NCBI RefSeq assembly: GCF_001753245.1 | Contig: NZ_CP017415.1 | Span: 682,001-746,000, forward strand | Direction: 5' to 3' | DNA length: 64,000 bases | Source: Acidihalobacter yilgarnensis | GTDB taxonomy: Bacteria; Pseudomonadota; Gammaproteobacteria; DSM-5130; Acidihalobacteraceae | In this document: positions 59,253-63,553 of the stretch, piece by piece | Numbering within the stretch: the stretch's first letter is position 1 | How the letters are laid out: every line of letters begins with the position of its first letter | Made by a program: the position numbers and the translations under genes | Notes under the pieces: model-generated | Seen by the model: the letters and a program-made list of their open reading frames with translations, nothing else | Database searches by the model: none | What the model was told of the DNA's origin: nothing

Positions 59253-59890
59253 CTAGCCAGCCTGGGCCAATGTCAGCCCCGCGTTCAGGAAGATCAGCGC
59301 GGCGTAGAGCATGATGGCGGTGACCACGACATTGATCGCCCGCCAGACCGGCGGGCGCGTCAGCCAGCGCGAGAGGGTTGCCGCGAGCAAGGTTACGCCG
59401 AAAAACCAGATGACCGAGCCGCTGATGGCACCGCCGGCGAAGGCGGCCCGCTCATCACCCTGGTAGCGCAGCGCGAAGGTGCCGAGCAGCACTGCGGTGT
59501 CCAGCCAGGCGTGCGGGTTGAGCCAGCTCAAGGCTAGGGCGTTGAGCACGATGCCGCGTCGCGGGGGAGAGGGGCGTCATCGTCGGCGTCGAGCGCCAGT
59601 GCCTGCTTGGCGCGAATCGCATCGCGTGCGGCGTGGAATGCGTGATGCCCAAGAAACAGGGCGCCGGCGAAATAGAACGCGGTTTCCAGACGTGGACTGG
59701 CCTGGATCACGGCGCCGAGTCCGGCCACGCCCAGCATAATCAACCCGACGTCGCTCAAGCTGCAGATCGAAGCAATCAGCCAGTGATGTTCGCGCCGGAT
59801 GGCCTGCCTCAGGACATAGGCGTTTTGGGCGCCGATGGCAACGATTAGGCTGAGGCCCAGAAGGAGGCCGTTGGTATAGCTGCTGAACAT
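59253..59890 (-). pseudogene. LysE/ArgO-family amino-acid exporter, single-base frameshift
   Basis: From ATG 59890 the frame reads MFSSYTNGLLLGLSLIVAIG and on for 118 aa, then ends early at 59534. The second half begins IVLNALALSWLNPHAWLDT and continues to 59253 in the -1 frame. The joined protein would be about 212 aa with six membrane helices, the normal size of LysE/ArgO exporters of basic amino acids. One extra C on the minus strand, at the G5 run 59563-59567 (or G4 59571-59574 on plus), would restore it. Confidence 0.85.
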
Positions 59891-60455: not shown

Positions 60456-61259
60456 TTAGAAGACGATCTGGCCGCCGAAACCGATACCGTAGCGCGCACT
60501 GCCGTTGCTCAGTCCCTTGTCGATATAGAGCTGGAAGCCGCTACCCTGAGTGGTGACGTTGTGATTCCAGGCGACGATTACGTCGGCCGGGCCTGCATAG
60601 CCCTTCTGCTCCGATTGCGAGCCGGCGAACATCGCGGTGAGGATGTTGGATTGCGAGCGGGGTAAGACGTAACTCGCGCCGAAGTCGTAGGTGGCGATAT
60701 TCTGCAGGCTGGAGTTTGCGGGTTTGCCCACCAGACGGTAGCCGACGTGCGCGAAGGGGAAGGTGTAGCCGCCGGCGCGCCCGTCGAAGCCGACGCCGAA
60801 TTCGTAATCGTTGTGACCGGAGCCGAGGCCGGCGGAGTGCGAGGCCGTGGCAATCTTTACCTTGGCGTAGGGATGCACGCCCACGTGCCCGTTGCTGGCA
60901 TGCGTGGCCGAATAGCGAACCGTGATCCAGGTGTCACCCATGCCGGAGGCTGAGCGTGTCTGCGTCTGTCCGCCGCGCGTGGACAGGTTGCTGCCGGCCA
61001 GCGTAGCCCCTTGCGGTAGGCCGGTGACCGATTCGTAGGGAATGGTCAGCTTGATGCGCAGGCGATCTTTACGATACTGGATATAGGTCGGCAGGTAGAA
61101 AATGTTGATGGTGTTGGCGGTGCCGTAGGTACCGGAGAAATAGGCGGGAACGCTGCCAACCGTCAACTGGGCATCCTTGGCCTGCGCGATGGGGGCCAGC
61201 AGCGCAGTGCTGAGGACCGAGGTGGCCAGTATGGCCGTCGTCCGGAAAGTTGTCGTCAT
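60456..61259 (-). CDS. Outer-membrane beta-barrel protein (transporter-like)
   Basis: 267 aa with a signal peptide (MTTTFRTTAILATSVLSTAL, cut near AQA) and a C-terminal phenylalanine, typical of outer-membrane barrels. Many short alternating hydrophobic/glycine strands. Parts (IFYLPTYIQYRKDRLRIK, KLTIPYESVTG) recall the MetA-pathway-of-phenol-degradation / FadL-like family often labelled OM transporter. Substrate unknown. Confidence 0.7.
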   Translation of the reverse strand: MTTTFRTTAILATSVLSTALLAPIAQAKDAQLTVGSVPAYFSGTYGTANTINIFYLPTYIQYRKDRLRIKLTIPYESVTGLPQGATLAGSNLSTRGGQTQTRSASGMGDTWITVRYSATHASNGHVGVHPYAKVKIATASHSAGLGSGHNDYEFGVGFDGRAGGYTFPFAHVGYRLVGKPANSSLQNIATYDFGASYVLPRSQSNILTAMFAGSQSEQKGYAGPADVIVAWNHNVTTQGSGFQLYIDKGLSNGSARYGIGFGGQIVF

Positions 61260-61318: not shown

Positions 61319-61349
61319 GACACTGCCGGCTTTATCGGCCGGCAGTGTC
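61319..61349. other. GC-rich hairpin downstream of the repeat-protein gene
   Basis: Perfect 12-bp stem GACACTGCCGGC (61319-61330) / GCCGGCAGTGTC (61338-61349) with a seven-base loop, between the end of the xPEVx repeat-protein gene and the barrel-protein gene on the minus strand. No T-tract on either side. Confidence 0.55.
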
Positions 61350-61373: not shown

Positions 61374-61703
61374 TCAGTGGTCGACCTGGGGCGTCTGTAC
61401 GTCGGGGCGCTGGACTTCAGGCTGCTGGATCTCGGGTCGCGAAACCTCAGGGGTCTGCACGTCCGGGCGTTCCACTTCGGGCTTCTCGACTTCCGGGCGA
61501 TTGACGTCGGGGGTTTCGAGCTCAATGCCGTTGCTGCCGGTCTGCATCGAATCGGTGTCAGGCGTCGGGTTGATGTCAGGCGTGGTGACCACGTTCGGCG
61601 AAGTGGCGACCGCCGCAGCAGCGGCACCCAGGGTCGCGAGATTGATACCGAAGGCGGCGATGAGGGCAAGCAGCAGGTGGCGCATATGCGTGTGTTTGTA
61701 CAT
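61374..61703 (-). CDS. Small exported protein with nine xP[E/D/Q][V/I]x repeats
   Basis: 109 aa with a signal peptide (THMRHLLLALIAAFGINLA, cut near the Ala-rich stretch at ~32). After a Thr/Pro/Asp-rich linker, residues 64-108 are nine consecutive five-residue units: TPDVN, RPEVE, KPEVE, RPDVQ, TPEVS, RPEIQ, QPEVQ, RPDVQ, TPQVD. This spells a rigid, charged extended chain. ATG at 61703 has AGGAGA upstream; a longer in-frame start has none. Function is not recognised; a periplasmic spacer or surface-exposed repeat is possible. Confidence 0.8.
   Translation of the reverse strand: MYKHTHMRHLLLALIAAFGINLATLGAAAAAVATSPNVVTTPDINPTPDTDSMQTGSNGIELETPDVNRPEVEKPEVERPDVQTPEVSRPEIQQPEVQRPDVQTPQVDH
61380..61514 (-). 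repeat. 15-bp-period tandem repeat (nine units) in the repeat-protein gene
   Basis: DNA encoding the nine xPEVx pentapeptides. The period is exactly 15 bp, but the units are not identical at the DNA level, suggesting old rather than recent expansion. Confidence 0.8.
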
Positions 61704-61839
61704 GGTGTCGATCTCCTGGTCGTTCCGGTGCGTGATCTTGCTGAATGAGTGGCGCAGTGTCGTTGCGCTCATCATCAGACACGCCGGGATACGGAAAAAG
61801 GTTCCAGGAATGAGGGTGGAGGATTGCGATTGAGGCAGG

Positions 61840-61870: not shown

Positions 61871-63553
61871 TCAGATCTTGAACTGGTTGACCAGTGATTG
61901 TAGTTCTGCGGAGAGCTTGGCCAGCTCCTCGCTCGCGGTCGCGGTCTGTTGGGCGCCGGTAGCCGTTTGGTCGGTGGCGTGGCTGATGTTGCTGATATTG
62001 CGGTTGATTTCCTCGGCCACGGTGGATTGTTCTTCGGCCGCGCTGGCAATCATCGAATTCATGTCGCTGATACGTACCACCGAAGTGCTGATGGCCTCCA
62101 GCGAGGTGCCGGCCTCCTCGGCCTGGGCGACGCTCGCCTGGGCGCGTTCGCGCCCGGAGGCCATGGCTTCGACCGCACCCTTGGAACCGGTTTGCAGGCG
62201 CTCGATCATGCCGCGGATTTCTTCCGTCGAATCCTGCGTCCGTTTGGCCAGCGTGCGTACCTCGTCCGCGACCACAGCGAAGCCGCGGCCCTGCTCGCCG
62301 GCGCGCGCAGCCTCGATCGCGGCGTTCAGCGCCAGGAGGTTGGTTTGCTCCGATATCCCGCTAATCACCTCCAGCACTCGACCGATCTGCGCACTATCGC
62401 CTTCCAGGGCATGGATGACTTGTGCCGTGCGCTCGACCTCGTCGGCGAGCTGGCTGATGGATTTGATGGTGTTGCCGACGACCTTCTGCCCCTGTGCGGT
62501 AGCGCTGTTGGCGTCGTTCGCGGCGCGTGCCGCGTCGTTGGCGTTCTTGGCGACCTCTTGCACGGTGGAGGACATTTCGTTCATCGCGGCGGCGACCTGA
62601 TCGGTCTCGCTTTGCTGGCTGTGGACGTGCCGGCTGGTTTCTTCGCTGGTGGCGGACAGTTCCTCGGCCGCTGCGGCCATTTGCGCGGTGGAGCCGGCCA
62701 CTTGGCTGACGACGTTCTGGATGCGCTCGACGAATTGATTGAAGGCCGTGGAGAGCTGGTCGAGTTCGTCCTGACCGTGCGTGACCATGCGACGGGTCAG
62801 GTCACCCTCGCCTTGTGCGATGTCGCGCATGGTGTCGACCGTTAACCGCAGACGATTGCGCATGCTGAGCACGGCCACACCGATCAGGCTGGCGCCGATG
62901 ATCAGGGCGAGCGCCAGGAGGCTCAGGCTGACGATGTTCGAGATGCGCAGGTCTTTGAGCACCAGCTGTTTATCCTTGAGCGATTGAGCGTGTACGATCT
63001 TGGTTAGGGCGCGCAGCTCCTCGTCGATCTGCTCGGAGAGCGGGTAAGCGGCGGTGACCAATTCGTTCTCAGCGGAGGCGAACTGCAGCGACTTGAGGCG
63101 ACTGATGGTCAGCTCGTAATCGGCCTTACTCTTAGCCCAGAGACCGCCGATGTGATCGAGTTTTTCCTTGAATTTGGGGTTGGACTCGGCAAGCTGGCTC
63201 GCGCGGTTGTAGGCGTCATCCGCTTCTGAAACATGTTTGCGTGCGGCATTGACGTACTTGCCGTCGAGACTGTCCTGCATCAATTTTTGACTTAGAGCCG
63301 GGTCGACGCCACCAATACGAGTGAGATTCATGTTGAGTACGTTGTCGCGAATTGCGATACCGGTGCGCAAGGTGGCGCCGCTCATGCGCTGCAGCGCGTT
63401 GAGCAGCGCGGCCTCGTGGTCACTACGCAGGGTGTCGGTTTTGATGACGCCTCCGAACCAGACGGGCGTCAGCACTGCGGCGATGGCCAGTATGGCGGCG
63501 ATGCTGACGCTGGCCATGATGCGCGCGGAGATGGTGCGAACCATTATGGACAT
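61871..63553 (-). CDS. Methyl-accepting chemotaxis protein with four-helix-bundle sensor
   Basis: 560-aa membrane chemoreceptor. TM1 at about residues 8-30, a helical periplasmic sensor of the 4HB_MCP kind (31-200), TM2 near 205-230, HAMP (~230-285), then a signalling domain with [21 protein letters not shown]. Ligand unknown. ATG at 63553 has AGGAA upstream. A near-perfect sigma-28 promoter lies 112 bases upstream, so it belongs to the flagellar/chemotaxis regulon. Confidence 0.92.

Follow-up and report, generated by a model that had tools for sequence, protein, structure and literature searches.

A small exported protein of five-residue repeats is paired with a FapF-related outer-membrane barrel in Acidihalobacter yilgarnensis

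Results

The repeat gene and its neighbours

The window, i.e., the whole 64,000-nucleotide stretch of A. yilgarnensis DNA that was analysed, carries a gene for a small exported repeat protein. As stated in the original prediction, which was made from the sequence alone, the gene lies between the genes for an outer-membrane barrel and a chemoreceptor. The features are the following:

61374 to 61703, minus strand: gene for the small exported repeat protein, read from the ATG at 61703 to the stop at 61374 (109 aa)
61379 to 61516, minus strand: the nine five-residue units, residues 63–108, under purifying selection
61319 to 61349, minus strand: intergenic RNA hairpin with a 12-bp perfect stem, between the repeat and barrel genes
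60456 to 61259, minus strand: outer-membrane barrel related to FapF by sequence profile, 267 aa including the signal peptide, with about 12 strands, downstream of the repeat gene
61871 to 63553, minus strand: methyl-accepting chemotaxis protein gene, a neighbour conserved in the genus only

The start at 61703 is preferred to the ATG at 61775, which opens the longest open reading frame, since AGGAG is located 9 nt before it and the orthologs share that start position. The predicted protein consists of a signal peptide (approximately residues 1–31), a linker (32–62), nine xP[DEQ][VI]x units and a C-terminal DH. The units read TPDVN RPEVE KPEVE RPDVQ TPEVS RPEIQ QPEVQ RPDVQ TPQV(DH), so the nine gapless units that had been described, with proline at position 2 and an acidic residue or glutamine at position 3, are indeed present. 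They far exceed the expectation from shuffling: when the mature-protein residues were shuffled 200,000 times, no run was longer than three units (reached 7 times), and none of the other open reading frames of the window had a run above one. The expected exported, extended and charged chain fits with the signal-like N-terminus, a net charge of −11 and an AlphaFold2 prediction with neither helix nor strand beyond the signal helix. Aromatic residues and cysteine are absent from the mature chain.

The original prediction had recognised no family, and our searches of Pfam, NCBIfam, PHROGs and the PDB sequences agree with this, as they returned compositional matches only. Among these was Extensin_1 (PF02095), rejected at 25.6 bits against a cut-off of 105. 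A DNA satellite was also rejected as the source of the repeat. Tandem Repeats Finder detects no array at the locus; as DNA the repeat is therefore old, and it is in the protein that it has been kept.

The chemoreceptor gene is missing at a second copy of the pair in a same-genus genome (G001) and at distant loci, and thus probably lies outside the repeat–barrel unit. The hairpin is found at the same intergenic place in all four genus copies, its sequence differing between two pairs of them, with a z-score of −5.9 in the window and a weaker one in another same-genus genome (G002). The window stem is not followed by a T run, and an ordinary intrinsic terminator was therefore rejected. Elsewhere in the window, an ArgO/LysE-type exporter gene (59253–59890, minus strand) is broken into two overlapping frames, while the ortholog is one uninterrupted open reading frame in both G001 (L025) and G002 (L024); the window gene is either a frameshifted pseudogene or a sequence error.

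Orthologs and paralogs within the genus

The search gives one copy of the repeat protein and no second one in the window's own genome (G000). The genes for repeat protein and barrel lie side by side in three species of the genus; the orthologs in G001 and G002 have the same setting of chemoreceptor, repeat protein and barrel. Among these orthologs the repeat is retained unit by unit, with differences mostly at the third codon position. Over the 47 C-terminal codons, the nearest ortholog from the same genus differs 5, 2 and 21 times at codon positions 1, 2 and 3, respectively, with dN 0.12 and dS 0.83. The resulting dN/dS of about 0.14 shows that selection keeps the repeat.

The second copy in G001 has a barrel of its own and no chemoreceptor. 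Between this copy (L026 6180–7191) and G002 (L024 8303–9310), the 3′ end of the repeat gene and the barrel gene are about 95% identical over 1 kb and the barrel proteins are identical, while other loci compared between the two genomes or within the genus are approximately 73–78% identical, which suggests a recent transfer. A G001 contig (C7, L116) carries an overlapping, near-identical stretch of 5,150 bp (99.96%). In G002, a paralog of seven units that ends in KPSMPD (L027 5934–6266, plus strand) has no barrel nearby and is flanked by a polysaccharide-deacetylase-like gene and a zinc alcohol dehydrogenase-like gene, as read from the open reading frames.

Variation in repeat number, which had been proposed as a check, was found: the four barrel-linked copies of the genus have 9 units each, the unlinked paralog has 7 and a more distant genome (G269) has 18. 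Family-level searches for such variation returned just two and three genomes.

Relation of the barrel to FapF

With the window barrel as query, Pfam gave no family at E ≤ 10, PF13557 (Phenol_MetA_deg) included. Among 28 barrel relatives, 12 match PF13557 at E ≤ 1, one of them (L103) above the curated cut-off. When a profile of the 28 barrels was run against all PDB sequences, a single protein was significant, namely FapF (E = 2.1 × 10−7, in two stretches), and the solved COG4313 channel Pput2725 (4rl8) was not found. A Foldseek search with the AlphaFold2 model of the barrel placed FapF at ranks 1 and 3–17 and 4rl8 lower; the model is of low confidence (pLDDT 50, pTM 0.46), and this result is read as support for that of the profile. 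At the level of sequence profiles, the relationship of the window barrel to FapF is thus established. The FapF-like N-terminal disordered or coiled-coil region and the plug are not present on the window barrel, as the first strand stands at the very start of the mature protein, only a few residues after the signal peptide.

Pairing of the repeat gene and the barrel across genomes

The barrel profile matches 37 of 369 genomes and a three-unit DNA pattern of the repeat matches 19, while the reversed control pattern matches one. Both occur together in 10 genomes, where about 1.9 would be expected (p = 1.5 × 10−6), and the co-occurrence persists when the window's own genus is left out (p = 4 × 10−5). 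In nine loci checked, from several distant families, the repeat and barrel genes are on the same strand, 17–114 bp apart, the repeat gene coming first in five and the barrel in four. Of 29 barrels, 16 have a proline-charged exported open reading frame no more than 800 bp away, compared with 23 of 229 other genes (p = 6 × 10−8). This automatic test is crude and errs both ways, so the sequences were also read by eye; false positives include a cytochrome-like open reading frame in L105, and false negatives are L089 and L096, whose repeats are carried by a DUF5666 protein and a divergent gene. Repeat gene and barrel gene thus form a pair that is conserved across the class. The original prediction is upheld for the exported, extended and charged chain and not for the barrel, which it had treated as an incidental neighbour. 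We found no description of the pairing in the literature.

The proposed search for the period-5 pattern in relatives gave matches both in the same genus and in unrelated Gammaproteobacteria. Two metagenome contigs from other Gammaproteobacteria (JASBUN010000026.1 and JACQER010000147.1) carry genes for the repeat protein, the barrel, DUF5666 and DUF6502. In the wider phylum, a four-unit pattern matches 8 of 398 genomes, counted by pattern match alone. One genome (G005) encodes an exported protein with RPEIQRPEVQ repeats (L028 9712–10167, plus strand) and has no barrel match; DUF5666 and DUF6502 are present in it elsewhere than at this locus. The profile scan of viral contigs gave no barrel, and that of plasmid records only three distant matches, in Novosphingobium.

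Partner types and the barrel tree

In other branches of the barrel tree the partner is a different small exported low-complexity protein: a period-6 MERPEL protein (L097), RPERPERP chains with a GIGYEYRxRHR motif (L094, L102, L104, L110 and variants), a period-3 PEK protein (L100) or a DUF3106 protein (L103, L108). Partner type follows the barrel tree, with 4 changes against a mean of 10.5 after shuffling (none of 200 shuffles was as low); for the xPEVx type alone two changes are needed. Partners in distant genomes also have in common a non-repeat block, AATPATPNGPGxAATPAxPGNP, so that their homology extends beyond the repeat. It has five strong matches in the 369 genomes, each of them adjacent to a barrel and each also a row of the alignment used for the search. 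At three RPERP-type loci (L094, L104 and L110) a gene for an OmpR-type response regulator adjoins the partner and the barrel, hinting at two-component control in that branch.

The DUF5666 and DUF6502 form

In several lineages a DUF5666 (PF18914) protein carries the same repeats as a C-terminal tail, and a DUF6502 (PF20112) gene adjoins. Such a tail ends the adjacent DUF5666 protein at L022/L089, L091, L092, L093 and L096, and the larger module is present in G059, G269, G175, G159, G262 and L023. Read by eye, several of the DUF5666 proteins have a lipobox. At five loci, the match of each tail to the small protein of its own locus ranked first among 120 pairings by shared 3-mers and sixth by alignment. 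Neither DUF gave a match in G000–G004 or in the window's genus or family; thus, the window carries the minimal two-gene form. One distant barrel (L111 8203–9591, plus strand) has a long low-complexity insert of the SDDNNDNSG type at the expected second extracellular loop, and the DUF5666 protein next to it has a DRDIDRDFDRD tail at its end. In the literature, DUF5666 came up only in passing, and DUF6502 in no paper that we found.

Discussion

The repeat protein appears to be the cognate small partner of the adjacent FapF-like barrel, and as a reading of the sequences we favour, with slightly less than even confidence, that it is the exported substrate. In favour count the linkage of the two genes, the agreement of partner type with the barrel tree, the shared non-repeat block, the likeness of the DUF5666 tails to the small protein of their own locus, the FapF match of the barrel, and the near-identical barrel and repeat 3′ end in G001 and G002. 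Sec would move it into the periplasm, where it would stay unfolded, since a proline at every fifth residue should prevent both helix and cross-beta structure. The chain would then thread through the barrel or dock its repeats in it, and end up stiff, extended and charged at the cell surface or in the matrix. The hairpin could favour the upstream repeat mRNA and so keep the repeat protein in excess over the pore. The DUF5666 protein with its repeat tail, present in other lineages, may be a second subunit that uses the same pore. We infer the direction of transport, the surface location and the role of the hairpin; homology does not fix the direction, because FapF sits in the PF13557/COG4313 superfamily, which includes importers. 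Export or display of an extended, charged and non-amyloid repeat chain by a FapF-like pore is put at a little under one chance in two. A broader version, proposed more tentatively, would be an undescribed envelope system found throughout the class. Its compact FapF-like pore would export charged, polyproline-like chains of a non-amyloid kind, whose flavour (period 3, 5 or 6) drifts while their physical character is kept, and DUF5666 would share the chain as a docking tail.

The main rival is that the repeat protein remains periplasmic, acting in trans as a gate, plug, chaperone or peptidoglycan spacer that replaces the coiled coil and plug of FapF. We consider this unlikely, at perhaps half the weight of export. 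The missing FapF N-terminal region and plug count in its favour and against export, as does the start of the barrel so close to its signal peptide. Some other branches have helical partners, or DUF3106 or weakly Metal_resist-like ones that look periplasmic, the latter also counting against export; the partner in L092 joins a coiled-coil-like region to the repeats, and the lipobox of several repeat-tailed DUF5666 proteins also fits. On the other hand, the repeats vary widely in number (7–18 units) and flavour, which suits a chain-like substrate better than a fitted plug, and the closest solved relative, FapF, exports disordered repeat proteins.

A second rival, which we regard as rather improbable, holds that the barrel moves a solute or metal and that the charged repeat protein binds ions or solute. 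The PF13557 matches of the barrel relatives are in line with this, as are the His/Met-rich nature of some partners (L090), a heavy-metal-sensor-like kinase upstream in L099 (read from sequence only) and a weak Metal_resist match of the L115 partner. However, the window protein has no cluster of His, Met or Cys, the content of metal ligands differs among partners while the proline-charged chain is kept, and the barrel profile misses the solved COG4313 importer. Least probable of all is a chance operon neighbour, a low-complexity exported protein of generic envelope role that shares transcription with the barrel, for while the G002 paralog and other period-5 P[DE][VI] proteins have no barrel nearby, the former also counting against export, distant families repeat the adjacency with the gene order turned round, and the type of partner tracks the tree of the barrels.

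The outer-membrane exporters of unfolded chains known so far, CsgG of curli and FapF, are tied to amyloid. If our preferred reading of an exported non-amyloid chain is true, the export of disordered chains would be a wider principle, selected for chain physics and not for amyloid folding. A barrel family so far without annotation would also gain its first role, and DUF5666, DUF6502 and DUF3106 would come together in one testable setting.

Regular proline with charged residues in an extended chain is known from the TonB proline-rich spacer, titin PEVK and extensin; the window protein differs from these in having no C-terminal domain, no curated match, and another period and context. The PF13557/COG4313 channels such as Pput2725 belong to the same barrel superfamily, with 4rl8 among the fold hits, but are described as importers and without a repeat-protein partner. 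The extended module differs from the window pair by the two DUF families, both absent from the window's genome. In the Fap system, FapC, a disordered protein with repeats, is secreted by FapF and has repeats in common with FapB and FapE (PMC5557850). Both systems have a 12-stranded barrel, related by sequence profile and by fold (the latter from a weak model), with genes for disordered repeat proteins, exported there and predicted to be so here, adjoining that of the barrel, and both include more than one such protein with a common repeat (FapB, FapC and FapE there, the small protein and the DUF5666 tails of other lineages here). Unlike the repeats of Fap, those of the window have a proline every five residues and no predicted strand; they are not of the N/Q-rich, amyloid-forming kind and, judging from the model, should not form cross-beta structure. 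A FapD-type C39 peptidase (PF03412) has no match in the window's genome and is scattered in other genomes, none at the module. The window pair is not a Fap system, because it has no coiled coil or plug, no C39 peptidase and repeats unsuited to amyloid; by analogy, the repeat protein and its barrel most likely work like one.
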